DNA of 59,248 nucleotides from contig JAPPGM010000093.1 in the NCBI GenBank assembly GCA_028874995.1, positions 1 through 59,248 of the forward strand, read 5' to 3'. This document shows, piece by piece, positions 32,150-45,827 of the stretch; position 1 is the stretch's first letter; each line of letters opens with the position of its first letter. This DNA is from Gemmatimonadota bacterium (GTDB lineage: Bacteria > Gemmatimonadota > Gemmatimonadetes > Longimicrobiales > Gaopeijiaceae). The notes beneath the pieces were generated by a model that had not been told where the DNA came from, did not search any database, and saw only the letters and a list, made by a program, of their open reading frames with translations. Position numbers and translations under genes: made by a program.

Positions 32150-32908
32150 TCAGGAAGGCAAGAAGAGAGACTCTGGTGGCTTTGCTGCCTTGAGGCGCAT
32201 CCAAGGAGACGATCCACTCCGATCCAAATAGGCCATCTGCCATTTCATGAGGCTTGACCAGCGCTGGTGCTGAATCGCGCGCCAATCATTGTGGTGATTC
32301 CGGGCACCCATTGTTCGTTGCTGCCAGTCATCTTGGAAGAGCTCGCCAAGCACGAATTCCACGGCGGCCATGGGCGTCACGAAAGGACTTGGTAGCCTAG
32401 GGATGGGAACGTTCCTCGGAAACGGAGGGTCCCCGTGGTCACCGAGGATCTGAAAATGGAAATAGCAACCTGGCGAATCATGGACACCGAACTCGATTCG
32501 CCACATCGCGAGACGGCTCGACTCTTCGTGCTTCTCCCGATACAGGCACTCAGCTGGCCATAGTTCGACGACGGACGAAGCCGAACCAACAAATGCAATC
32601 CTGCGGCCGGGACGCTTCTTTCCGACCGGCCGGACTTGCCATACTCCCCGTACATGGGCGTAGGCCTTTTGGCCACCGGATCTGCGAGCCCGCTCGTAAC
32701 CGCGAGTTGGCTGAGTGCGGAGTGGCAGCAACTCGAGCCTGCAATCGCGTTCGGCCGACCTCTCCCCAATTCGCTCCAAGTCCCGCGCGAAGTCTCTTAG
32801 CGGCCCATCTGACACGAATACGCCGGCGGCGATCCTCCGGAGCGCTTCGGTCTCCCGCATCAATTCCCGACACGAGAACTGAAGCCCTGCGAGCGCGGCA
32901 TTACTCAC
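32150..32908 (-). CDS. Unknown protein, last gene of the GHKL/receiver operon
   Basis: 252 residues, no family recognised. No signal peptide or membrane segment. The N-terminal half is helical and charged (LRDFARDLERIGERSAERDC). The middle has strand-like segments RIAFVGSASSVVELWPAE, RLAMWRIEFGVHDSPGCYFH and FQILGDHGDPPFPRNVP. The C-terminal part is Trp- and His-rich (QRTMGARNHHNDWRAIQHQR). Its start overlaps the stop of the receiver-domain gene by 8 nt, so it is translated with the operon. In a defence reading it would be the effector or an adaptor, but nothing in the sequence proves that. Confidence 0.7.
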   Translation of the reverse strand: MSNAALAGLQFSCRELMRETEALRRIAAGVFVSDGPLRDFARDLERIGERSAERDCRLELLPLRTQPTRGYERARRSGGQKAYAHVRGVWQVRPVGKKRPGRRIAFVGSASSVVELWPAECLYREKHEESSRLAMWRIEFGVHDSPGCYFHFQILGDHGDPPFPRNVPIPRLPSPFVTPMAAVEFVLGELFQDDWQQRTMGARNHHNDWRAIQHQRWSSLMKWQMAYLDRSGSSPWMRLKAAKPPESLFLPS

Positions 32909-34034
32909 CCGAATCGATCCGGTACTGGTCCAGCGGCTCCACTAACGCCCTCAGGTCCCGGTCGCTCCGCAGTTCTTCAATCTTCATCCACGCCGCATCC
33001 GCAAAGGGCGGCCAGTGGTCCGGACGGAGCTTTACGGCGTCATGCGGAGACGCAACCCCCAGCGGCCGGAAGTCCTGATCCAAGCACACCACCGGATCGC
33101 GCGTGGCGACCAGTTCGACGGCTTCCCCAGCTTTCTCCCGAAGCTGGATTTCAAACCCACCCGACCTCTCGGAAGACTCGCCCCCGAGCGTCCACGCGTA
33201 GTCTTCCATCGCGGTTCGCCACCAGCGGTCGCCTAGGAAACCAGCCAGAACCCCAGCGTACTTGAGCTGCTCCATATCCCGTGCCAGCTCACAGTCGGAA
33301 TCCATCAAGCGCTCAAGATCGTCCACGCGGAGACGGAGGCGCGCGGCCACCCAGTTCACATCCCAAAGGAAGCACGGGTAGGGTAGGATTTGGTGGAGCA
33401 GCCAGCGCAGAAACAGCGCTCCGTGGGGATGACCGGCCAGCTCGTAGAGGGGCGGCTGGCATTCCCGCACCTCGCGCCAGGCTCGTTCAGCCCACCCGTC
33501 CTCATCGTCGAGCTTCAGCAACTCTCGCGCACGGGCTTCGGAGGCCGAAGGATTGACCGGCCAATCACGCGCAAGACCTTGGGCGGCGCAAGCCAGTTGA
33601 ACCACGCCTTGGAAACGGTCTGGATCGCTTTTCTCGAACACCCATTCAAGATTGTTCAGACGCGCCACAACGTGTCTGGAATAGGGTGGCCGGATCCTCC
33701 CGCTGACATCTCCCAGATGTCCGGTGTGGAGGGCCACCGCAGTAAGGTGGCCATTCGCCCTCTCGTCCGCTGCCTCCCTCAGCACGGTGGCAAGAGCCAA
33801 ACCGGTTCGGATGTTGAAGGCCGCGGGCTGAACCTCGCGTTCAGGCCAGTCTTCGAGACGGTAGTCCATGAGGACCAGGTGTGCCTTGCCAAGATCTTCA
33901 GGTTCAACGCTCTGCGGATGTCGCACCATCAGTTCCGCTTCGTCGGCCAGCCGGAGTTCGAGGCCACTTCGCAGCTCGTCCGCCTCGTCGTCAACCACGA
34001 GAATGACCGGCTTGGCGGCACGTTGGGCGTTCAT
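32901..34034 (-). CDS. Receiver-domain protein with unknown C-terminal domain
   Basis: 377 residues. The N-terminus is a response-regulator receiver: VILVVDDEADEL (acidic pair Asp15/Asp16), phospho-acceptor Asp57 in LVLMDYRLEDW, and TAVALHTGHLG for the switch Thr. The remaining about 250 residues match no DNA-binding output domain known to me; they include PHGALFLRWLLHQILPYPCF, WDVNWVAARLRLRVDDLERL and LGDRWWRTAMEDYAWTLGGE. The start overlaps the GHKL gene stop by 4 nt (ATGA). It is presumably phosphorylated by, or binds, the histidine-kinase-like C-terminus of that partner. Confidence 0.8.
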   Translation of the reverse strand: MNAQRAAKPVILVVDDEADELRSGLELRLADEAELMVRHPQSVEPEDLGKAHLVLMDYRLEDWPEREVQPAAFNIRTGLALATVLREAADERANGHLTAVALHTGHLGDVSGRIRPPYSRHVVARLNNLEWVFEKSDPDRFQGVVQLACAAQGLARDWPVNPSASEARARELLKLDDEDGWAERAWREVRECQPPLYELAGHPHGALFLRWLLHQILPYPCFLWDVNWVAARLRLRVDDLERLMDSDCELARDMEQLKYAGVLAGFLGDRWWRTAMEDYAWTLGGESSERSGGFEIQLREKAGEAVELVATRDPVVCLDQDFRPLGVASPHDAVKLRPDHWPPFADAAWMKIEELRSDRDLRALVEPLDQYRIDSGE

Positions 34035-36364
34035 TTCGGAAAGACCATTTCGATGGCGGTTGCGTATGGCGAATCGGGTTCGACGAACTCAATCTCGATC
34101 CCGTAGTAGTCGAGCAGCCTTCTTGTGATCGTGAGACCGAGACCCATTCCCTGGCCGAGGACGGGATTGACCTCCTCGGTTGTGGACTCGAAAGGCTCGA
34201 ACCAGCGCTCCGCCTCGCCGAGGTCGACAGCTACTCCTGTGTTCTGGACCCTTACCCGCAGCACACTGTCGTCGCCAGCCGTCGAGGCCCCGATCCGTCC
34301 CCCCTCCCCCGCACCCTTCACAGCATTCGTAAGCAGGTTGGCGAAGACGGTGGTCAGTTCCGCCGGGAACATCGGGATCGTCCTAACTCCCTTCGGAATC
34401 CTGTTCTCGATCCTGATCTTCCGCCGCTCGGCGGAGTGCCTGACAAGACGGACGGCCGCGTCGAAGCGGGCGGCAACATCTTGGCGAGAACGGCGTCTAC
34501 GAGCGTCCGGTGTGACGACATCCACGAGGTAAGAGGCGTGGCGCTCGATCCACTGCGCCAAGTCGACGGCCGCAGCCCACGCAAGTTTCACCCGCCGTCG
34601 CTGAGACGGAGAGAGTGACTGGTCGCGGAGAATCGCCCTGAGACCCTCACGCAAGGTCTGTGCAGCCCCAAGCAACGCGTTCATCTCGTGGGCGAAGGCG
34701 GCCATTTGTGTACCGACAGAGGCCAGTACTCGGAAGAGGGCTCCTTCGGAAATCACGCTGTCCGCCCGCTCCTTAGCCTCCTCCATGGCATGCACAGCCT
34801 CACGCATCCTTGGTTGGGCAGCGTCTGCGTCGCCCTGGCTGACGAGCAGTCGAGCTTCGCTGATCGAAGCACCGGCCGCCGCGATGAGGTCCGGCAAGGA
34901 GCTGCGCTCGTCGCCCTTCGAACTGGTGGCGGGTCGCCGGTCATCTCCATTGGCGGACTCCACTTCCCAAGTCTTCCGCCGCTCCTCCCGCCTCCGCATC
35001 CGCGCCTTTAGGTTGCTGGCCGCGCGTACTCGGGTGCACAGGTCCACGCCCGTGCGAACCAGTTTAACGAGCGTGTCGAACGCCGCCTCGGGTACGAAGC
35101 CTTCGCGGTTGACAAGCACCCGTAGCGTGGGCGCGCGCTCCTGCGTGAGAAACACACCGCCGAAGTAGTTGATGTGGGGAAAACGGGTCAGTCCCTCGTC
35201 CGGGTCCGCATCCTCGAACTCCGCGGCGAGAGGCCAATTCCTCAGCATTTCGAGCTGGCGAGGGCGTCTGGCGTAGTCGGCATCAATGGAAAGCCAGTCG
35301 TCGTCTCCGTACGGCAGCACCCGGAACCCCTCCAGATATACGCGGATTCCACTCGCCTTGGCGGCCCATGTCCGCCGGCGACGAGCCCCCTTGCCCTTGA
35401 TCGGACCCTCACGCATTAGGATTCGGGCGTCGAATGACGGACCGCGTTCGGGGTCGGGGTGCTCGATAGTGGTCGCGTAGTCTCTCGCGTCGGGGTTCCC
35501 AGCGCGGGTGCTGCGTGTCGGCGCGATCGCAAATCGGACCCGCCCGGCGTCCGCCTCAGCACGGATCTCAATCACCCAAGCGGCCATCTGTGCAATCACG
35601 TCCCAGTACTCGTCGCCGGACGCGAACTCACCTTCAAGGACTACTTCGAATCCACCACCCACCTGCCCCGCCCGGTTTCCGCGTATGTCCCGCAGAACGG
35701 GGCGCTCGAACAGAACAGGCTGGCGAACTACGGTCTCCGGCAGTGGCTGCTGGATGAAGTCTGGAGTCTGGAACGCCTGAACCTCAGCGAAGAACCTGGC
35801 CCGTTCCTTGGGCGTCCACGGCCGCCTGAGATTCAACAAGGTCAGGACAGTTCCGGAGCTGGTGCCCTCGTCAATGTTATTCTCAATCAGCGACACCACA
35901 TGGTCGGGTATGTCGTCGAGGGTCTCGTATGCCTCGATCGCGTCCCAATCGAGAACGGCGACGAGTTCCTTCGCCTTCGTGCCGCCATCAGCGGACTCGG
36001 CGCGGTGCACACTCGAAACCTCCAGTCGTCGCGCCAGCTTGTGGGCCGCCAGCCTCCCGATCCCCTTGACGCCGGTATATCGGCGCTCGAACACGGTCGA
36101 GCGCCTCGTCCCTTGGTCTTTCAGCCGCGACGCGATGCGCAGGAAACCCGACAGGAACCGATCCCGCCTCATTCCGGTTCCATTATCCAGAATTACAATG
36201 TGTCCCCGGTCCTGATCGTCGAGGTTCTCACCGTGGACGATCACTTCTGTGGCGTCGGCGTCGTAGGAGTTCTTGATCAGTTCGATCAGCGCCGTGGAAT
36301 CGCGGCCCACCAAGAGCTCACCAAGCTCCCGAAACAGATGGGTGTCGACCGTGAATCTAGCCAT
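34031..36364 (-). CDS. Double GHKL ATPase: MORC/HSP90-like N-terminus and histidine-kinase-like C-terminus
   Basis: 777 residues. The first GHKL domain (about residues 1-120) has the N-box ALIELIKNSYDADATEVIVH, G1 ILDNGTGMRRDRF and G2 YTGVKGIGRLAAHKLARRLE. This is the HSP90/MutL/MORC type. A long middle region resembles the linker of paraMORC proteins (INYFGGVFLTQERAPTLRVL). Near the C-terminus a histidine-kinase-like module follows: H-box AAFAHEMNALLGAAQTLREG, N-box FANLLTNAVKGAGEGG, G1 VRVQNTGVAVDL and G2 GQGMGLGLTITRRLLDYYG. No membrane segments, so it is cytoplasmic. The start overlaps the methyltransferase stop by 8 nt and the stop overlaps the receiver gene. Confidence 0.85.
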   Translation of the reverse strand: MARFTVDTHLFRELGELLVGRDSTALIELIKNSYDADATEVIVHGENLDDQDRGHIVILDNGTGMRRDRFLSGFLRIASRLKDQGTRRSTVFERRYTGVKGIGRLAAHKLARRLEVSSVHRAESADGGTKAKELVAVLDWDAIEAYETLDDIPDHVVSLIENNIDEGTSSGTVLTLLNLRRPWTPKERARFFAEVQAFQTPDFIQQPLPETVVRQPVLFERPVLRDIRGNRAGQVGGGFEVVLEGEFASGDEYWDVIAQMAAWVIEIRAEADAGRVRFAIAPTRSTRAGNPDARDYATTIEHPDPERGPSFDARILMREGPIKGKGARRRRTWAAKASGIRVYLEGFRVLPYGDDDWLSIDADYARRPRQLEMLRNWPLAAEFEDADPDEGLTRFPHINYFGGVFLTQERAPTLRVLVNREGFVPEAAFDTLVKLVRTGVDLCTRVRAASNLKARMRRREERRKTWEVESANGDDRRPATSSKGDERSSLPDLIAAAGASISEARLLVSQGDADAAQPRMREAVHAMEEAKERADSVISEGALFRVLASVGTQMAAFAHEMNALLGAAQTLREGLRAILRDQSLSPSQRRRVKLAWAAAVDLAQWIERHASYLVDVVTPDARRRRSRQDVAARFDAAVRLVRHSAERRKIRIENRIPKGVRTIPMFPAELTTVFANLLTNAVKGAGEGGRIGASTAGDDSVLRVRVQNTGVAVDLGEAERWFEPFESTTEEVNPVLGQGMGLGLTITRRLLDYYGIEIEFVEPDSPYATAIEMVFPK

Positions 36365-38018
36365 TACTGTCCGCAGCCCTGGAAGGCCTGCGCCACTGCG
36401 TCAAATCGTTTCGCAGTTGGTTCAAGATCTCGATCTCCGGGTCCTTAAGGCGCAGCCCCTCGCCCAAAACCCGTTCGTCCGCAATCTCTCTGGCCTCCTC
36501 TTCGCTGCCCTCGCGAAGCAAGCGGTTAAGCTTCTGGAAGACATCTTTCGCACCGGGAATCAACGGCACGGGGATCCTCTTCAGCGTACCGGGTTCCATC
36601 TTCAGGATCCCTCCGCCGTAGCGACGGCCCCGCAGCTCGGCCCATGCCGAGACCGCGCTGGTGAGGAATCCCACGGCCACGGCTTCCGGGGTGACGGCAA
36701 GCTCAGACTCCCAGCAAACGCTGTGGAGGGCATTGCTGTTCAAGCACTCCCCCCTGTTTAGGACGAGCAGGGGCGATCCGGCTCGCGCGCAGGTTGCGAA
36801 CGCGTCGGAACGCGACGGTAGGTCAACTCGGAACCAGTGGCTCCGGAGGGCGCATTTGTATCGGTCGTCGATGCCGCCTTCGACACCTTCTTGAATCCAA
36901 GAATCGACGAGGCGGTCGTGTTCCGCGCTTTCGGGCCGGACCAGAAGCGCCGCTGCCCCAGCTGCCACGAGCGCTCCATGGTCGTCGTTCGTGAACTCTA
37001 GGCCCTCCAACCATCGAGTACGCGACACGATGCCATGCCGAACATCGGCAGGGATATTGATAGCGTCGAGGGCGGCTCGAGAGCGGATGAAATGCCGATT
37101 TGCGCCGGTGACCACTCCGACCCTTACTGACGCCACTTGGTCCAAACGCCTAACTTGGGGAGATTCTCGGATTCGGGACAGCAGGTCAATGGCTGCGTCG
37201 AGGGTGTCTCCATCGGTAGGCGGGAAGGAAGAGCAGTCAGGAGGGCAACCATTGGAGTTCAGGAGAACCGACTCGAGTCCCTCAACCGAATCGACGGCCA
37301 GCGTTTCGACGGTACCACTGTCACCAAATCCCGAGCACGCCAGCGCGACCACGGCCTCGTCCGTGCCCTCAAACTGCCGATCACGAATGTGGATCAATCG
37401 GCTGGTCCCGAACCGCTCGGCCAGCATCTCGCGCAGAGGCGCAGCATAGTCGGTCTGCAAGATCGCCTCTGGTACCAGCATGGCCAGTCGACCTCCGGTT
37501 GCCAAAAACCTCAGGGAATGAAGAAGAAAATACGCCCAGAGGCTGGCAGTGGCCGGGAGCGGCACCGACGATTCGGCTGCGACAGCCCGGGCCGACTCCT
37601 GTTGATCGCCCGTGATCCAGTGGTGTCGTACGTACGGAGGATTGCCCACGATAGCAGCGTATGGACTGCCTGGGAGATCACCGAATGATGTCGCCAAGAA
37701 GTCGGCCTCGATGCAGTTCGCCTCGATCAACAGTTCGCTGTCGCGCGCCGTCTCGATACAGCTGGGGTCGATGTCGACCCCGTAGACACCAGTTCCCGCG
37801 TTCGACGGATCGCTTCTTGAGAGTACACGAGCGGCAGCCTCCAGAAACGCGCAGCCGCCGTAGCTCGGATCCAAGACGGGCCCGTCTCCGTCCGCCAGCG
37901 CCCACCTCACCAGCACCGTTGCCAATTCGTCCGGCGTGTAGTAGGACCCGAGCAGGCGGCGCCTTGGTACGGACCCTAGATCGGGCTCTTGAGGCAACTG
38001 GTCGGTGGGGAGCATCAT
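36357..38018 (-). CDS. N6-adenine DNA methyltransferase
   Basis: 553 residues. SAM-binding motif I region (PVLDPSYGGCAFLEAAARVL) follows GSYYTPDELATVLVRWAL, the start common to N6-MTase/Eco57I-like enzymes. The catalytic NPPY is in AAIVGNPPYVRHHWITG. Mid-protein blocks TGGRLAMLVPEAILQTDYAA and DRQFEGTDEAVVALA are standard. The C-terminal half (RVGVVTGANRHFIRS, LKRIPVPLIP) is a TaqI-like target-recognition region. It would methylate adenine in a specific site and mark self DNA. Gene order places it directly upstream of the GHKL gene with overlapping ends. Confidence 0.88.
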   Translation of the reverse strand: MMLPTDQLPQEPDLGSVPRRRLLGSYYTPDELATVLVRWALADGDGPVLDPSYGGCAFLEAAARVLSRSDPSNAGTGVYGVDIDPSCIETARDSELLIEANCIEADFLATSFGDLPGSPYAAIVGNPPYVRHHWITGDQQESARAVAAESSVPLPATASLWAYFLLHSLRFLATGGRLAMLVPEAILQTDYAAPLREMLAERFGTSRLIHIRDRQFEGTDEAVVALACSGFGDSGTVETLAVDSVEGLESVLLNSNGCPPDCSSFPPTDGDTLDAAIDLLSRIRESPQVRRLDQVASVRVGVVTGANRHFIRSRAALDAINIPADVRHGIVSRTRWLEGLEFTNDDHGALVAAGAAALLVRPESAEHDRLVDSWIQEGVEGGIDDRYKCALRSHWFRVDLPSRSDAFATCARAGSPLLVLNRGECLNSNALHSVCWESELAVTPEAVAVGFLTSAVSAWAELRGRRYGGGILKMEPGTLKRIPVPLIPGAKDVFQKLNRLLREGSEEEAREIADERVLGEGLRLKDPEIEILNQLRNDLTQWRRPSRAADSNG

Positions 38019-38042
38019 CCTCCGCTCTGCTCGCGGACCGCG

Positions 38043-38438
38043 CTACGGCGTGTCCGGTTTCATCCGAGTGTTGTTCACCGGACCAATATAGGGCCCCGGG
38101 CGAAAGCCGAAACCGGTACTGTAGCTGAGCCGAAGACGGGTCAGCCGGTGGATGTTGTCCGCCTTATCGAAGCTCCCGCCGGTTGGTGCCGCGGCTCTAC
38201 TCTCGTCCCGTAGCGGAACCGGGGGCGAAGCCATTGGGAGGACCACAGAGGCACATCGCCCGGGGCCTTCCCAAGACGTCCGCACGAGAGAGCCATCCTC
38301 GTAGCCCAATGCCTCCAGCAGCTTCCCCGTTGCCTCGTCATGCTGGGCGGCGCGCCACAGATCGGCCAGAACAGACCATCGAGTCGTCAAGAGAAGAACC
38401 CACACCCACCCGCGCTTCCATCTCCGCGAACCCTCCAT
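38043..38438 (-). other. Probable frameshifted 3' part of the restriction-like gene
   Basis: From about 38370 down to the stop at 38043 this frame reads convincingly as protein: LADLWRAAQHDEATGKLLEA, then GYEDGSLVRTSWEGPG. It has the high GC third positions of the neighbourhood. The first 70 bp of the frame (MEGSRRWKRGWVWVLL) look like out-of-frame noise. Meanwhile the overlapping gene at 38338-39315 ends in an unlikely tail. I infer one gene of about 425 residues broken by a frameshift near 38368-38378. The alternative is a short separate gene. Confidence 0.5.
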
Positions 38439-39315
38439 CCCCCCACACCATCTTGGTCAACAGCGGCGACCCCACATGCCAGACCTCCCTCTCCGTCCAC
38501 CCCCTCAGCTCCGGGGCGCTGAAGACGAACCGCCGATCATAAACCGAGTACAGCCTCCGAAACATCCGGTTGAAATCCAGAACCGATCCCGGATCAGGAT
38601 ACCTGGAGCCCACAACGCAATGCTCCGGTCCACCATCGCATCTCGCCGGAGTCAATCCGCAAGCCTCGTAGTGCGACGGGTCATCCCGAAGGTCCCGGCG
38701 TTCCGAGAGTCTCCGTAGCGCATCGCGGTACCGGTTGAGTTCGCCACCCTCTTGGTGGTTGAGGATATCGGCGACACTCCGGCCCTCTGTCGGACCAACG
38801 CGGACTGGGCGCGCAACAGCATTATCGTTCCCGCTCACGACATGCCAGAAGCCGTAAACCAGTGCCGGATAAGCCATGTGAAGGTTGACGCAGCCGCCAG
38901 CGACGCCCTCCAGTCCTTCCACTAAGTCATCGAATCCGAAGTGAGTCCCCTTCAGCGACACGGCGAGCATCGGCCCGATGTCGGCAACCGTGACGGTCAC
39001 GTCGACCTTCCTGGCCGTGAGACCACCAAAGATCGTCCGGCGACCAGGTATCGCCGCATCCGGGTCATGGTGAAGGACGGCTCCACGCCGGTTTCGCTCC
39101 ACGGCGATCGGCGGACGCGGCCGGATCCGGTCGGGGTGGAACCCGCCTTCGATGACGAGACGACAGGCCACATACTCCCGTAGCGCACGGATCCGTTCCC
39201 CGGGCTGACCATTCGGATCAGAAGAAGCGAACCGGGTGATCGCCTGCCGCAGGCTGGTCGGTGCGCGCGTCTCAACTGGCACGGGAACGCCTTGTTCTTC
39301 GCCACATACACGCAC
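38338..39315 (-). CDS. Possible restriction endonuclease-like protein (first gene of the methyltransferase operon)
   Basis: 325 residues from GTG 39315, no named family recognised. A candidate nuclease core is KVDVTVTVADIGPMLAVSLK (Asp, then SLK in place of the usual E/D-x-K). It is followed by GTHFGFDDLVEGLEGVAGGC, where SLKGTHFGFDDL recalls several type II enzymes (weak). Four Cys/His positions in EACGLTPARCDGGPEHCVVG could bind zinc. The position immediately upstream of the methyltransferase on the same strand supports a restriction role. The C-terminus is probably frameshifted (see 38043-38438). A 21-bp repeat pair lies 33 bp upstream of the start. Confidence 0.6.
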   Translation of the reverse strand: MRVCGEEQGVPVPVETRAPTSLRQAITRFASSDPNGQPGERIRALREYVACRLVIEGGFHPDRIRPRPPIAVERNRRGAVLHHDPDAAIPGRRTIFGGLTARKVDVTVTVADIGPMLAVSLKGTHFGFDDLVEGLEGVAGGCVNLHMAYPALVYGFWHVVSGNDNAVARPVRVGPTEGRSVADILNHQEGGELNRYRDALRRLSERRDLRDDPSHYEACGLTPARCDGGPEHCVVGSRYPDPGSVLDFNRMFRRLYSVYDRRFVFSAPELRGWTEREVWHVGSPLLTKMVWGDGGFAEMEARVGVGSSLDDSMVCSGRSVARRPA

Positions 39316-39348
39316 CGTAGGTCGGAGTTGACTCCGCGCGTTGGGTCA

Positions 39349-39390
39349 AAATGTAAATCATACTTGACAAAATGTAATCCAGAGTAGACA
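39349..39390. repeat. 21-bp direct-repeat pair, locus C
   Basis: Copies at 39349-39369 and 39370-39390, both beginning AAATGTAA; the first ends TTGACA and the second TAGACA. Zero spacing and the same orientation as the other loci. It lies 33 bp upstream of the first gene of the methyltransferase/GHKL operon. Confidence 0.8.
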
Positions 39391-39555
39391 TCGTTGAGAT
39401 CGATCCAAGGCCTTCCCGCCTGAATTCCTCCAGGCTCCGCTGAAACGCCGCCGTGACCGTATCCATGCTCATCGTGCGCTCCAGTTCCTCGCTGTGGATC
39501 CCTGTCGAACGTAACATCGCTCGCACGTACAGGCCTTGTCGCGATCGAAGACCCC
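39391..39555. other. Intergenic, possible gene remnant
   Basis: A short minus-strand frame here reads MSMDTVTAAFQRSLEEFRRE before running into the repeat pair and losing sense. The helical start looks like genuine coding sequence, so this may be the 5' stub of a lost gene. No function can be named. Confidence 0.3.
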
Positions 39556-40806
39556 CTACGGCCCCAACCCCCCCACCGGAATCACCCCCACCCCATCCTC
39601 CCGCACATACCCGTACCCGCTGCTCACGATCACCCCCAGCGCCGCCGGCTCCCCCATCCTCTCCGAATCCACCCGCGCCGCCAACCTCCGAAGATTTCGC
39701 GCAGCCTCATCCACCCTCCCCTCCCCCAGCTTGACCTCGAAAGCCGCCCAGCGACCATCGTTCGCCTGCACGATCGCGTCCACTTCCAACCCTCCCTTTT
39801 CCCGGTAGTGGAACACCTCGGCGTCCGCGGCCTGGGCGTAGACCCTCAGATCCCGCACTACCAACGACTCGAAGAGGAGCCCCAGGAAGTCGAGGTCGCG
39901 GAGCAGGCGGGTGGGCGTCGCCCGAACGGCGGCCACGGCAAGGGAAGGATCCGTGAGGTGTCGAATCGGTTTCCGTCTCAGAACCGACCTCGACCTGAGG
40001 TGCGTGGGCCAGGCGGGCTGATTCTCGACGATCATGATCCGCTCGAGCGCCCTCAAGTACCCGGCCGCGGTGTGCTCCGTGATAGCCGACACACCTTCGC
40101 CGGTGTCGGAGGCGAGAGTCGCGGTCGCCGCGGGGGTTGCGACGTTGCGGGCCAGGGACCGAAGCAGCATTCCCACTCTCACCGGGTCTCTCCGCCTGCC
40201 GTCTCCATTCGCAATGTCCAGGCGGCGGATCTCGTCCAGGTGGTCCACGTTGGCGCGAAGTGCCAGCCGCGTGCTGCGTCCCAGGTTGACCGGCCACCCG
40301 CCGACGCAGATCAACTCCGCAAGGTCGTCGAGGGGGATCACCGCCCGGCCTGCAGTGACACGCTCCGCATCCAGAAGGCCCGCCAGCGAGACTTCGCCTG
40401 AAGAGCGCCCGAGTTCGAACAGCGAGAGCGGGCGCATGCGAAGACGCGTCAGGCGTCCGGCCCCCGTATGGCGGGTCGCGTCGTCGGCCGGCACCGCGGA
40501 TCCGGTAAGGATGAATTGACCCGGGAGGCGCCGATCGTCCACGGCGCGCCGCACGTGATTCCAGATCGCCGGCTCCAGCTGCCATTCGTCGATCAGCCGG
40601 GGCACGTCACCGACGAGGATGCGGGCAGGCTCGAGCGCGGCGAGGCGTCGCGCCACTCGGTCCACATCGAGCCGCACTTCACTGGCGGCGATCTGCTGCG
40701 CCGTGGTGGTCTTTCCCGAGGCGCGGGGGCCCTCTACCACCACCGCGCCATTGGCCTGCAAGCGCTCGGCCAACTCCGTGTCCACAATTCTGGGTTGATA
40801 GGTCAT
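39556..40806 (-). CDS. ATP-binding protein, AAA + DUF4143 (second copy)
   Basis: 416 residues. Walker A VVEGPRASGKTTTAQQIA, sensor-like FILTGSAVPADD, and GRLTRLRMRPLSLFELG. The C-terminal DUF4143 block has EVFHYREKGGLEVDAIVQAN and WAAFEVKLGEGRVDEAARNL, giving a PD-(D/E)xK-like Asp/Glu-x-Lys. Only distantly related to the copy at 22117. It lies upstream of the methyltransferase operon on the same strand, about 240 bp away. Role unknown; a frequent resident of accessory islands. Confidence 0.85.
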   Translation of the reverse strand: MTYQPRIVDTELAERLQANGAVVVEGPRASGKTTTAQQIAASEVRLDVDRVARRLAALEPARILVGDVPRLIDEWQLEPAIWNHVRRAVDDRRLPGQFILTGSAVPADDATRHTGAGRLTRLRMRPLSLFELGRSSGEVSLAGLLDAERVTAGRAVIPLDDLAELICVGGWPVNLGRSTRLALRANVDHLDEIRRLDIANGDGRRRDPVRVGMLLRSLARNVATPAATATLASDTGEGVSAITEHTAAGYLRALERIMIVENQPAWPTHLRSRSVLRRKPIRHLTDPSLAVAAVRATPTRLLRDLDFLGLLFESLVVRDLRVYAQAADAEVFHYREKGGLEVDAIVQANDGRWAAFEVKLGEGRVDEAARNLRRLAARVDSERMGEPAALGVIVSSGYGYVREDGVGVIPVGGLGP

Positions 40807-41338: not shown

Positions 41339-42409
41339 ATGAAGCTGAAGCACGGCTTGGTCGGCGTTGGCATCATGATCATCGGAGTCTCCTTCGCAGC
41401 GCCCTCTCTCGGGCACGGGCTCGCTTCGGCGCAACAGGTCAGGGCACTCAGCGACGGCGCGGCCGTCCGGCTCGACCCGTCCGATTCCAGCCCGGTCATC
41501 GCCAACCTGGCGCCGGGTGCGACGCTGGACTGGATCGGGGAGTCCGGTCCGTACCACATCGTGTCGATACCCGGCCAGCCCGGCGAGGACGATCTGATCG
41601 GATATGTCCTCGCATCCGAAGTCGAGGTCGTGGGAGCCGTGTCCGGCGGCGGAAACCCCTCTATGACTGGGGCCGGGATTCCGGACATCCACGCGCAGTA
41701 CGAGAGATCGAAGGCCCGCCGGTCTTCGGGCCTGAAGAGGTGGCTCTGGGGAGGGACGCTGGCCATCGCCGCCATCGTAACAACGAAGGTCTTGTTCGAG
41801 GCGGGGGACGAGGACGCCTATGCGGACTCGGCCTCCCATCAGGCCGCGGTTGACAGGCACTCCTCGGCGCGGACCGTCAGGAACACCGTCACGCTGGCCG
41901 GCGTCGGCTTGCTCGCCTGGGGAGCCGCCGACTACGTCCTGGGAGGGCGAGACATGGAGACGATGGAAGGGGAGCTCCCCACATTGGCCGATCCGGCTCT
42001 GGAGGAGCAGTACAGGGAGGCCGGCGCGAGGTACGGGTCGGGGAAGAGGAAGTTCCTCTGGGGCTCCATCATGGCGGGCGGCTCCTACGTGACGGTGAAG
42101 TGGCTGCCCTGGCTGGGCGTTCCGGAGCGGGAGGACTACGACACCGAGTGGGAATACCTGTCCGCGGTGCACAGGCGGGACCGGACCGAAAGCGCGAACC
42201 GGTGGTTCATCGGGGTGGGAAGCGTGCTCGCAGTCTGGGGCGCGGCCGATTGGGTGCTCGGGTCGAGGAAGATGGCCGAGATCGAGGCGATTTCGCGCGT
42301 GACCGAGTCGCCGGCGCCGCGGGGGGCTCCCGCCGCGCGGGCCGGGCCGGACCTCTTCGTCAGGCGCGTCGTGGGCCGCACCGAGATCGGTCTCGCCTGG
42401 AGCCGGTGA
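41339..42409 (+). CDS. SH3-like membrane protein with duplicated two-helix module (motor cassette gene 1)
   Basis: 356 residues. Signal peptide or anchor about residues 1-31, then an SH3b-like domain (VRLDPSDSSPVIANLAPGAT, IGYVLASEVEVV, about 35-100). The rest is an internal duplication. One unit has KRWLWGGTLAIAAIVTTKVL and later VGLLAWGAADYVLGGRDMET; the second has KRKFLWGSIMAGGSYVTVKW and VGSVLAVWGAADWVLGSRKM. Each unit holds two hydrophobic segments separated by about 50 charged residues. The stop overlaps the next ATG (TGATG), so it is coupled to the leucine-rich-repeat protein. No named family recognised. In context it is an envelope component of a proton-channel-associated complex. Confidence 0.8.
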   Translation: MKLKHGLVGVGIMIIGVSFAAPSLGHGLASAQQVRALSDGAAVRLDPSDSSPVIANLAPGATLDWIGESGPYHIVSIPGQPGEDDLIGYVLASEVEVVGAVSGGGNPSMTGAGIPDIHAQYERSKARRSSGLKRWLWGGTLAIAAIVTTKVLFEAGDEDAYADSASHQAAVDRHSSARTVRNTVTLAGVGLLAWGAADYVLGGRDMETMEGELPTLADPALEEQYREAGARYGSGKRKFLWGSIMAGGSYVTVKWLPWLGVPEREDYDTEWEYLSAVHRRDRTESANRWFIGVGSVLAVWGAADWVLGSRKMAEIEAISRVTESPAPRGAPAARAGPDLFVRRVVGRTEIGLAWSR

Positions 42410-43908
42410 TGCGCCACCCCGGGGCCGGCCGCCGTCGTCTCCAATATGCGGCCGGCGTCATCGTGGTCGTGGGGGTCGCGGCCGCTATGGTCTCGATGGC
42501 GCGGAACCGGACCCTCACGCCCGAGCAGCTCGCCGCCGCCCAGGAGGCGCAGCTCGGCCTCGGCACCGATATCCTCGCGCTGGTGGAGCTGGGACTGTCC
42601 GGCGAGGGCCGCTACTCCGGAGACGCCGACGGTGTGCTGGAACCCGAAGCCCGCCAGGGACTCCGCGAATGGCAGGCGGACCAGGGAATCGACGCCACCG
42701 GATACCTGGACCGCGCCAGCCTGGCGGAACTGCTGGCGGCGGGCCGGCAGGCGGAGGCGGAAGCGGCGGAGGCGCGGCGGAGGGAGGAGGCGGAGGCCGA
42801 GGTGCAGCGGCTCGCCGAGGAACGCCGGATCGCACGGGAGGAGCGGCTCGCGGAACAGGCCCGCCTCGACTCCGCCAGGCGTAAAGGGGAGCGGCGGCTC
42901 GCCGAGGAGGCCAGGTTGGCCGAGGAGGAGCGGCTTGCGGAAGAGGCGCGCCGGGAGATGGAGCGGATCGCGCAGGAGGCCCGGCTGGCAGAAGATGAGC
43001 GGCTCGCGGAGGAGGCCCGCCAGGCCGAGGAGGCCCGCCAGGCCGAGCAGGAGCGCCAGGCGGAGGAGGCCCGCCGAGCGGAGCAGGAACGCCTGGCCAA
43101 GGAGGCCCGGCAGGCGGAGCAGGAACGCCTGGAGGAGGCCCGCCGCGTGGCGGCCGAGCGGATGGCGGACCCGGCGCAGCGACAGGCCGACATCCTGGAG
43201 ACGGCGCAGCGACGGGCCGAAGAGCGGCTCACCGACGACCAGCTGCTGCTCGCTTCCAAAAGCGCTCTGGCCGGGACCACCGGCGACCTGAACTGGCGCC
43301 TCACACTGAACCGGCGGTCCTGGACGGGTGTGCGGTCACGCGGCGAGAACGTCGTGGGACTCGATCTCAACGGACGGAATCTGGGGGGCGGGATTCCCCC
43401 GCGGCTTGCGAGCCTGACGGAGCTGGAGCTCCTCAACCTGGGTGGAAACGGGCTGTCCGGCGCGATTCCGGCCGAGCTGGGCTCGTTGCGACAACTCAAG
43501 GCGCTGTTCCTCGAGGGCAACCAGCTGTCGGGCCAGATACCGGCCGAGCTGGGTGCGTTGTCGAGCCTCGAGGACCTGCACGTGTACAACAACCCCCTGA
43601 CCGGAATCATCCCGCCCGAACTCGGGAATCTGGTGAGCCTCAAGAGGCTGCGCCTGTCCCGAACACAGGTCGCCGGCCGGATACCGCCCGAGCTCGGCAG
43701 ACTGCAGCGGCTCGAACTGCTCGCCCTCAGCGGCAACCAGCTCTCCGGGCAGATACCTCCCGAGCTGGCCAACCTGACCAACCTGAAGCGGCTGACGCTG
43801 AGCAACAATCGGCTGTCGGGATGCATCCCGAAGGCGCTGATGCGCTTCGAGTCCGGGATCAATCCGCAGCTGGGCGGGGTTCGTCTTCCCGAGTGCGGGC
43901 GGGAATGA
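42409..43908 (+). CDS. Anchored PG-binding-like / coiled-coil / leucine-rich-repeat protein (motor cassette gene 2)
   Basis: 499 residues. A TM anchor (residues about 13-31, YAAGVIVVVGVAAAMVSMA) is followed by a peptidoglycan-binding-1-like domain (about 50-105: LVELGLSGEGRYSGDADGVL, REWQADQGIDATGYLDRASL). A TolA-like Ala/Glu/Arg coiled coil of about 170 residues comes next (about 107-280). Seven plant-type 24-residue leucine-rich repeats (about 310-490) end the protein, with consensus LxxLxxLxLxxNxLSGxIP and xELG. The domain order predicts an inner-membrane anchor, a long rod through the periplasm and a recognition head. The start is coupled to gene 1 and the stop overlaps the MotA-like gene (ATGA). 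Confidence 0.85.
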   Translation: MRHPGAGRRRLQYAAGVIVVVGVAAAMVSMARNRTLTPEQLAAAQEAQLGLGTDILALVELGLSGEGRYSGDADGVLEPEARQGLREWQADQGIDATGYLDRASLAELLAAGRQAEAEAAEARRREEAEAEVQRLAEERRIAREERLAEQARLDSARRKGERRLAEEARLAEEERLAEEARREMERIAQEARLAEDERLAEEARQAEEARQAEQERQAEEARRAEQERLAKEARQAEQERLEEARRVAAERMADPAQRQADILETAQRRAEERLTDDQLLLASKSALAGTTGDLNWRLTLNRRSWTGVRSRGENVVGLDLNGRNLGGGIPPRLASLTELELLNLGGNGLSGAIPAELGSLRQLKALFLEGNQLSGQIPAELGALSSLEDLHVYNNPLTGIIPPELGNLVSLKRLRLSRTQVAGRIPPELGRLQRLELLALSGNQLSGQIPPELANLTNLKRLTLSNNRLSGCIPKALMRFESGINPQLGGVRLPECGRE

Positions 43909-44780
43909 GCGACAACGTGGGTACGCCTCCGGAGTCGGCCCACACCCCGCAGCGACCCGCGGAGAGCGACGAGCGGGTACCGTTCCGGGCCGTGACCCTG
44001 TTCGTCTCCCTGCTGGTCGGGATCGTCCTCGTGGGGGCTCTGTCGTACGTGTTCCCTGCCGGCGCCGACAGCGTGGGCGCCGAGCTGCTGGTCGACAGAA
44101 ACACCCGGATCTTCCCCTACCCTTTCACCATACAGAACGTGATGTGGCTCGGCTTCTGTGTGGCCGGCGGAGAGCTGGTGGTGCGCCATTTCACCGGGCG
44201 ACGGGAAGGCGAGCAGATCTACCTCGGGCTGCTTCCCGAGGACGACGAGACCATTCTGCACAAACGCGACCTCACCCCGATCTACGAACGGGTGGTCGAG
44301 TCCGACCCGGAGAGGCGCTATCTGCTGCAACGCCTGCTGACCGGCGCGCTGCTGCAGTTTCGCAACAGCGGGTCGGTGGACCAGGTCAACTCGATGATCA
44401 ACGTGTCGCTCGAGCTCTACCAGCATGAAATCGAGCTGCGGTACAACATGCTGCGCTACGTCATATGGCTGATTCCGACGCTCGGCTTCATCGGAACCGT
44501 ACTGGGCATCGCGTTCGCGATGCGTTCCGCCGGGGTCATGTTCGCGGGCGCCAGCATCATGGAGGGAACGATCGGACCCGAGATGATGGAGCAGTTGACC
44601 GGAGACCTCGGGGTTGCGTTCTACACAACCCTGCTCGCCCTCCTGCAATCGGCGGTGCTGATGTTCGTGATGCACGTCATGCAGGGGAAGGAGGAGGGGG
44701 CCCTGAACCGGATCGGCCAATACTGCCTCAACAATCTGTCCAACAGGCTGCACGAGGAGCGGAGTCCCGGCCCGCGGTAG
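43905..44780 (+). CDS. MotA/TolQ/ExbB-family proton-channel protein (motor cassette gene 3)
   Basis: 291 residues from ATG 43905. Four membrane helices: FRAVTLFVSLLVGIVLVGAL, FTIQNVMWLGFCVAGGELVV, IWLIPTLGFIGTVLGIAFAM and LGVAFYTTLLALLQSAVLMF. The last two carry the family signature (PTLGFIGTVLGIAF; LGVAFYTTLLALL). A cytoplasmic loop of about 90 residues lies between helices 2 and 3. Such proteins form the pentameric ring of 5:2 proton motors (MotAB, ExbBD, TolQR, ZorAB). A MotB/ExbD-type partner must exist; the convergent gene at 44817-45827 fits. Translation is coupled to the LRR protein. Confidence 0.88.
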   Translation: MSDNVGTPPESAHTPQRPAESDERVPFRAVTLFVSLLVGIVLVGALSYVFPAGADSVGAELLVDRNTRIFPYPFTIQNVMWLGFCVAGGELVVRHFTGRREGEQIYLGLLPEDDETILHKRDLTPIYERVVESDPERRYLLQRLLTGALLQFRNSGSVDQVNSMINVSLELYQHEIELRYNMLRYVIWLIPTLGFIGTVLGIAFAMRSAGVMFAGASIMEGTIGPEMMEQLTGDLGVAFYTTLLALLQSAVLMFVMHVMQGKEEGALNRIGQYCLNNLSNRLHEERSPGPR

Positions 44781-44796
44781 CGGGGGCGCGCCCGTG

Positions 44797-44816
44797 CCGG
44801 CGGCCGGCCGCGCCGG
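44797..44816. terminator. Possible bidirectional terminator hairpin
   Basis: CCGGCG and CGCCGG (44797-44802 and 44811-44816) flank an 8-nt GC core, in the 36-bp gap between the stops of two convergent genes. The position fits a shared terminator. There is no T-tract, so confidence is low. Confidence 0.3.
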
Positions 44817-45827
44817 TCAGAACAGCGACAGAAGCAGGTTGACCGTCAGCGAGCCTCCCACGTCCCGCACGTACTGGCCGCCGCCCGCTTCGGCGACGCT
44901 TCGAAGAAACCCCTCAGTGGCGGAGTTGTTCGAGCCCCCCGTCTTGACGTAGACCGTCGACACGCGATGTCCTTCCGATCGCCCGATGCCGGTCGCGACC
45001 TGTATGGATCGATCGATCTCCTCGCTATACGCCGGGTTGTCGGTCACCAGCACAATGACCCTTCGCTCGGATCGCGGCCGCCAGGTCATGCGGGAGGCCG
45101 CCGCGAGAGCATCGTAGAAGGCCTCGGGCTGGTCGGGGTTCCTACCGCTCCCGGTTCCCATGCCCACCGAGAGGCCGTTCACGAACGTGCGGAACGCATC
45201 GCGGTTCGCGGCCGGACCGGAGAGCTCACGCAACGGGAACAGGAACATCGGGCTCTCCCATCGGCGATCTCCGAACGCCACCATCCCGATGCCGAAGCTG
45301 GGCGAGATCCGGTTCAGAAGGACGGCGAGCTGCTCGACCTCCGCCTTGAGCTTGGCGATCTGCCCGCCCATGCTGTTGGTAACGTCCAGCGCGACGATGA
45401 TGTCGAGGTGGGGGAACCGGAAGTGCGGGGCGTTGACCTGGATGGGCGCGGGGGCGGGCTCCGGGCATATGACCGGGGCGGGCACCGGAGGACAGACCGG
45501 GCATTCCACGGGGTCGGGTACGGCGACTTCGGGACAGATCGTCTCCGGCACGGGTTCCGGAACCGGGCACGTGGGGCACACCGGGCAGTCGATCGGCTTC
45601 GTGACCGCGGCGACGACCGGGCATGTGGGGCACACCGGGCATACGACCGAGTCGGGCGTTGGAACCGCCATGATGATCGGAGCGGGCGGGGCCGGAATGT
45701 CCGGCACCACCTCCCCGATCATCGGGAAGATGACGACCGCGATCAGTATGAAGGCGCCGAGGGCCGACGCGAACAGGTCAAGCGCCGCGATTCCGAACGG
45801 GCTCGGTGCGCGGCTCCTCTTCTTCAT
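44817..45827 (-). CDS. MotB/ExbD-like single-pass protein with Cys/Pro stalk and VWA domain (motor cassette gene 4)
   Basis: 336 residues from ATG 45827. A short basic cytoplasmic tail leads into one membrane helix, GIAALDLFASALGAFILIAV. Asp17 sits at the helix start, where MotB, ExbD and TolR keep their proton-binding Asp. A periplasmic stalk of about 90 residues follows, with ten cysteines in CPVCPTCPV-like units separated by Pro/Val. The C-terminal half is a von Willebrand A domain (DIIVALDVTNSMGGQ as MIDAS with Thr for the first Ser; VIVLVTDNPAYSEE). It takes the place of the peptidoglycan-binding domain of MotB. It is convergent with the MotA-like gene. Confidence 0.8.
   Translation of the reverse strand: MKKRSRAPSPFGIAALDLFASALGAFILIAVVIFPMIGEVVPDIPAPPAPIIMAVPTPDSVVCPVCPTCPVVAAVTKPIDCPVCPTCPVPEPVPETICPEVAVPDPVECPVCPPVPAPVICPEPAPAPIQVNAPHFRFPHLDIIVALDVTNSMGGQIAKLKAEVEQLAVLLNRISPSFGIGMVAFGDRRWESPMFLFPLRELSGPAANRDAFRTFVNGLSVGMGTGSGRNPDQPEAFYDALAAASRMTWRPRSERRVIVLVTDNPAYSEEIDRSIQVATGIGRSEGHRVSTVYVKTGGSNNSATEGFLRSVAEAGGGQYVRDVGGSLTVNLLLSLF

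Follow-up and report, generated by a model that had tools for sequence, protein, structure and literature searches.

The 59,248-nucleotide stretch of Gemmatimonadota DNA analysed here (the window) corresponds to contig C18; the genome, which is 96.7% complete, totals 4.5 Mb in 191 contigs. The window contains four adjacent genes, encoding an SH3-like protein, a leucine-rich repeat (LRR) protein, a ring subunit of the MotA/TolQ/ExbB family and a protein with a VWA domain, which together probably specify a single envelope machine of the 5:2 type, driven by the proton motive force, with the VWA protein as its axle and the LRR protein as its arm. Within this proposal, the assignment of the MotA-like protein as ring and the VWA protein as axle is very likely to be correct. 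The set occurs in uncultured Gemmatimonadota, which, to judge from the titles of the source records, may be associated with sponges.

Composition and conservation of the four-gene set

The four genes are the following:
41339..42409, + strand: P0001, an exported protein of 356 amino acids with an SH3-like domain and duplicated helical hairpins
42409..43908, + strand: P0002, 499 amino acids, with a transmembrane anchor, a peptidoglycan-binding domain, a long charged helix and LRRs; the proposed transducer arm
43905..44780, + strand: P0003, 291 amino acids, a MotA/TolQ/ExbB-family ring subunit (PF01618) with four hydrophobic segments
44817..45827, - strand: P0004, 336 amino acids, with a transmembrane helix, a Pro/Cys linker and a VWA domain; the proposed motor axle (ExbD/MotB position)

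All four open reading frames are intact and, as an earlier note on this DNA had described, the three plus-strand genes overlap, P0001 and P0002 by 1 base and P0002 and P0003 by 4 bases, which suggests that they form a single operon. Identity to the nearest related species is ~77-96% for all four genes, and each shows a protein-like pattern of change in which the third codon position is the most variable; for the MotA gene and the VWA gene, more of the changes are synonymous than non-synonymous.

The co-occurrence of the four families, put forward in the same note as a check on its proposal, is pronounced. All 25 non-redundant loci contain a member of the VWA family; the LRR family is found in 23, and the SH3-like family and the MotA family in 22 each, while the next family reaches 8. 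Each locus contains one VWA gene, and where members are missing, as at L039 and L112, the locus mostly runs up to a contig end. A strong MotA match was found in 20 of 395 sampled genomes of the phylum, all 20 of which contain the VWA gene; VWA homologues occurring mostly without a MotA-like gene, the pattern that the note had regarded as damaging to its proposal, are thus not what is observed. The SH3-like protein is restricted to genomes of the same two genera that contain the MotA gene, the VWA gene or both, the exception being one weak match (G060). Phyla beyond the Gemmatimonadota were sampled only through a plasmid collection and viral contigs. The viral contigs contained no relatives of the set, whether sought by protein search or by helix pattern, and a viral origin was rejected on these grounds.

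Gene order has been altered at least twice across clades. In the window clade the SH3-like, LRR and MotA genes face the VWA gene; in g12 the order is SH3-like, LRR, MotA and VWA on a single strand; and in L041-L043 it is VWA, two SH3-like genes, LRR and MotA, again on a single strand, an arrangement shared by L048, in which the MotA gene leaves the contig. The convergent VWA gene described in the earlier note is therefore a feature of the window clade, and in the other clades all genes of the set share one strand. That the set was held together through these changes argues for a joint function. It could be argued, from the opposite-strand position of the VWA gene in the window, that this gene is a chance neighbour unrelated to the plus-strand operon. 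The same-strand operons of g12, L041-L043 and L048, however, together with the joint presence of the genes in the 20 MotA-containing genomes, refute this explanation, whose probability we consider to be close to nil.

A probable MotA/ExbB-type ring and its proposed VWA partner

P0003 matches PF01618 (MotA_ExbB) with a score of 38.3 bits against a cut-off of 22.9, and displays the conserved Thr, Pro and Gly channel motifs in its last two transmembrane helices. Two of the threonines delimit the following region:
44496..44630, + strand: Thr198 (in GTVxGI) through Thr242 (in YTTLL), both matching threonines of the motifs in the TolQ and ExbB of the same genome

Here the P0003 sequence PTLGFIGTVLGI...AFYTTLL is in register with PLLGLMGTVIGI...ALITTVA of TolQ and PLMGFLGTVAGM...ALLTTAA of ExbB. 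The channel signature P191/G194/G197/T198/G201/T242 matches both of these proteins, and the aligned P0003 family shows no variation at T198, T241 or T242. The protein scores below the NCBIfam equivalog thresholds for tolQ (16.9 versus 221 bits) and MotA1 (14.9 versus 303.8 bits), and its profile had no sequence match in the PDB.

P0003 also displays a weak match to ZorA2 (21 bits, E 3.5e-5), which, together with the peptidoglycan-binding domain in the set and the Eco57I-type methyltransferase and ATPase genes upstream in the window, might indicate a Zorya-type anti-phage motor that senses a phage disturbing the cell wall and triggers an effector. P0003, however, does not have the extended C-terminal tail that is known from ZorA, P0004 does not match ZorB, and no matches to ZorC, ZorD or ZorE were found among the ten window proteins scanned; membership of Zorya was therefore rejected. 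Furthermore, no conserved effector gene lies near the set in the 25 loci, and the flanking regions contain 46 PADLOC families compared with 49 in random regions (132 proteins each), a coarse test in which the control consisted of evenly spaced stretches from two related single-contig genomes and the comparison rests on a table of the first 25 families. The phage-defence role, and the location in defence islands, that had been raised for the locus are thus not borne out, and we view a Zorya-type motor as highly improbable. The upstream region itself (window 32901-40806) contains genes for a histidine-kinase-like ATPase, an Eco57I-type methyltransferase and a DUF4143 ATPase, and is possibly a restriction or defence patch.

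The proposed axle, P0004, comprises these elements:
45717..45797, - strand: trans-pore helix region, residues 11-37, recognized by conservation and by a near-identical core in Rhizobium
45777..45779, - strand: Asp17, invariant; the candidate proton carrier
45414..45716, - strand: Pro/Cys-rich linker with CPVCP repeats, residues 38-138, recognized by composition
44820..45413, - strand: VWA domain (PF00092), residues 139-336, with MIDAS-like D148-x-T150-x-S152 and D263

The single hydrophobic segment of the protein spans residues 19-37 and is directly preceded by Asp17, in agreement with the earlier description of an Asp at the start of the only membrane helix. Asp17 and the entire segment LDLFASALGAFILI are invariant in the 12 aligned sequences, in which the relatives are 58-96% identical to the window protein. 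Within the clade the helix region shows 96-100% identity, and between clades it still shows 73-76%. The linker is the fastest-evolving part, with identities of 43-52% between clades. Residues 37-140 contain 10 Cys and 31 Pro, and the CPVCP motifs of this presumed periplasmic linker are partly kept in most relatives. The VWA domain was identified with a score of 24.5 bits (cut-off 23.8), and the only PDB match to its profile, a weak one, was integrin beta-8. Residues D148, T150, S152 and D263 are invariant, a pattern that we take to be a metal-binding MIDAS (metal-ion-dependent adhesion site). The axle helix contains neither His nor an SHLS motif, and P0004 does not match PF02472 (ExbD/TolR).

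Besides the P0003 gene, the genome contains three PF01618 genes, and it has four matches to ExbD (PF02472). Contigs C165 and C174 carry both; none of the ExbD matches is located on contig C18. The proposal that the VWA protein is the equivalent of MotB or ExbD is supported by its co-occurrence with the MotA gene at the level of both locus and genome, the behaviour of a motor partner. A plasmid of Rhizobium leguminosarum, pRlBT01d (L138), encodes a ring protein that shares 44% identity with P0003, and its gene is followed by one for a protein starting MRRPNRNIEIFSMSVLDLFASALGGFIMIAIILFPSY, in which the axle helix LDLFASALGxFIxIA is nearly identical and the remainder has no Pfam match and no VWA match. 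Helix and ring have thus been conserved together through an exchange of the outer domain, as expected if the helix fits the ring, and this suggests that the axle helix is a portable plug. In L138:3666-20703 the pair is accompanied by a kinase/PDZ protein, an FHA protein and PP2C-like genes; no LRR protein was seen at this locus.

Several other loci contain related genes. A different three-gene set, consisting of a MotA-like gene and two small proteins with helices FNILACTLGVMVF and LMDILSCLVGVMLF that resemble the P0004 axle helix, is found at L049:7868-10484, L050:8515-11228, L051:9973-12443 and L057:732-3616, and L114:9006-11582 carries a similar set. At L113:3935-5090 (G002) a diverged VWA protein with the helix LDVISGALGAFLIIMIVLMPYY precedes an FHA-like gene at the contig end, and in L139:1-7133 (Anabaena cylindrica pANACY.03) a MotA/TolQ/ExbB gene lies two genes downstream of the type III-B CRISPR gene cmr6.

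The LRR protein, its possible kinase past and the SH3-like protein

P0002 comprises four elements:
42445..42501, + strand: single transmembrane helix, residues 13-31, recognized by hydropathy
42595..42726, + strand: PG_binding_1 domain, residues 63-106 (PF01471; 26.8 bits, cut-off 23)
42733..43242, + strand: long Ala/Glu/Arg-rich predicted helix, TolA-domain-II-like by composition, residues 109-278
43423..43845, + strand: six GxIPxxL leucine-rich repeats (LRR_1), with conserved C472 and C496 at and after the repeat end

The predicted helix contains 41 Ala, 44 Glu and 36 Arg in 170 residues, and the six regular repeats, of 24 residues each, give an LRR_1 score of 75 bits. By analogy, the layout of the protein appears to resemble that of TolA. 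A role as arm or sensor is plausible, and the chance that P0002 is specifically a force-bearing arm is about even.

A Hanks kinase domain occupies the N-terminal part of the LRR proteins of G025 (L043) and G099 (L044), with scores of 65 and 80 bits, respectively. L041 and L048 have a truncated form of this domain, and the window clade has none. In the G025 and G099 domains the catalytic Lys is replaced by Thr or Gln and DFG by GFG; the aligned Rhizobium kinase retains both the catalytic Lys and DFG. Judged by these lost residues, the domain is a pseudokinase that disappeared stepwise among the clades. Together with the kinase, FHA and PP2C-like neighbours of the Rhizobium pair, these remnants raise the possibility that the motor may have descended from a phospho-signalling envelope system.

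The same observations could be taken to mean that the set is a signalling device today, in which the LRR protein, once a membrane kinase, senses and the MotA-VWA pair is an ion-conducting gate rather than a producer of force. The FHA-like gene behind the diverged VWA gene of G002 is consistent with this view. It should be emphasized, however, that kinase domains without the catalytic Lys and the DFG Asp are not expected to have a kinase output, and that the domain has been lost completely in the window clade. We therefore consider a signalling gate unlikely.

Additional LRR proteins adjoin the set at L044:2544-4262 and L042:4675-8991, one of them with a lipobox-like start, and are possible outer-surface partners. 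As both VWA and LRR are common adhesion modules, and further LRR proteins adjoin the set in some clades, the genes might encode a gliding or surface-adhesion machine that moves LRR or VWA adhesins in the manner of AglRQS or GldLM. The 25 loci, however, contain no other conserved motility genes nearby, and there is little probability that this explanation is correct.

The features of P0001 are as follows:
41432..41632, + strand: SH3-like region, residues 32-98 (PF08239 below cut-off; beta strands in the model)
41687..42304, + strand: two helical-hairpin copies, residues 117-211 and 221-322 (internal alignment; helices in the model)

The duplicated helices described in the earlier note are evident, with 33% identity across 96 residues, and both copies hold weakly hydrophobic stretches. 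The SH3 assignment is less firm, as the PF08239 score of 18.5 bits is under the cut-off of 27, although residues 32-98 were modelled as beta strands with moderate local confidence in a monomer prediction that was weak overall (shallow alignment of closely similar sequences, predicted local distance difference test (pLDDT) score of 52). The N-terminal hydrophobic stretch is better described as resembling a signal peptide (ASA/QQ).

The proposed machine and its relation to known systems

In the machine that we propose, P0003 would form a MotA/ExbB-type ring and P0004 a dimeric axle whose helix, with Asp17, would sit inside the ring pore, the VWA domain being placed in the periplasm on its proline/cysteine-rich stalk. 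P0002, anchored by one transmembrane helix, would be the arm that grips peptidoglycan and whose long TolA-like helix extends the LRR head outwards, and P0001 may be a periplasmic or membrane scaffold. Proton flow would rotate or shift the axle, and the VWA domain might engage the LRR arm or another envelope ligand, thereby pulling on the cell wall or outer membrane or reporting how much tension they are under. Most probably, the machine draws on the proton gradient and, by way of its VWA and LRR parts, exerts force on the wall or outer surface or reads the tension there. A more specific version, in which a pseudokinase receptor gave rise to an LRR receptor of the inner membrane that is tethered to peptidoglycan and mechanically driven or gated by a dedicated VWA-axle proton motor, would make the set a force-powered sensor of surface or wall and a new functional class of 5:2 motor; this we regard as conceivable but doubtful.

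Four observations weigh against the proposed machine. G077 and G110 contain the VWA gene without any MotA match in the genome, the VWA locus meeting the contig end in both. The monomer prediction for P0003 was poor (pLDDT 43, from a shallow alignment of closely similar sequences). TolA and TonB grip their rings through an SHLS motif; the transmembrane segment of P0002, YAAGVIVVVGVAAAMVSMA, contains no His and no such motif, and a TolA-like ring contact is therefore unsupported by that motif. Finally, the pair of different vWA genes that predominates in the TolQ-vWA systems of PMC12204202 is absent, each locus having one.

Proton-driven ring motors power flagella, the Tol and Ton systems, gliding and Zorya defence, and the set bears on how one ring comes to be reused for new jobs. 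Of these systems, TolQ-TolR-TolA and ExbB-ExbD-TonB share with the set a PF01618 ring and, in TolA, an arm with a transmembrane helix and a long charged helix. In contrast with Tol and Ton, the VWA domain here replaces the ExbD/TolR domain, peptidoglycan-binding and LRR domains replace the C-terminal domain of TolA/TonB, and SHLS is missing. ZorAB resembles the set in its ring protein family and in having a peptidoglycan-binding part in the complex; here, however, that part is on the arm protein and not the axle, and the ZorA tail and Zor effectors are lacking. The Rhizobium L138 pair is similar in ring and axle helix but differs in its non-VWA axle domain, its linkage to kinase, PP2C-like and FHA genes and the lack of a visible LRR protein.

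The closest likeness is to the TolQ-vWA motors predicted in PMC12204202 (Mol Biol Evol 2025), most of them from Proteobacteria and Verrucomicrobia, in which a vWA protein that has a conserved Asp and a trans-pore helix like that of TolR is the proposed partner of a TolQ-like ring. As in those systems, a TolQ-like gene lies beside a gene for a membrane-tethered vWA protein, the trans-pore helix bears the conserved Asp without SHLS, and there is no tolR or exbD gene; the likeness is one of organization. The set differs in having one vWA gene together with an LRR arm and an SH3-like protein, and in its occurrence in Gemmatimonadota. The earlier claim that no such system had been described thus holds only in part: the idea of a VWA axle is not new, but the LRR arm, the SH3-like partner and the eroding pseudokinase are outside the published account, and nothing was found in the literature that joins TolQ/MotA, FHA, kinase and vWA. 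The set provides independent support, from another phylum, for VWA proteins replacing ExbD/MotB as axle, and connects a motor of this kind with an LRR arm and with a kinase domain lost stepwise. The four genes extend to the Gemmatimonadota a motor type that has so far only been predicted in other phyla.

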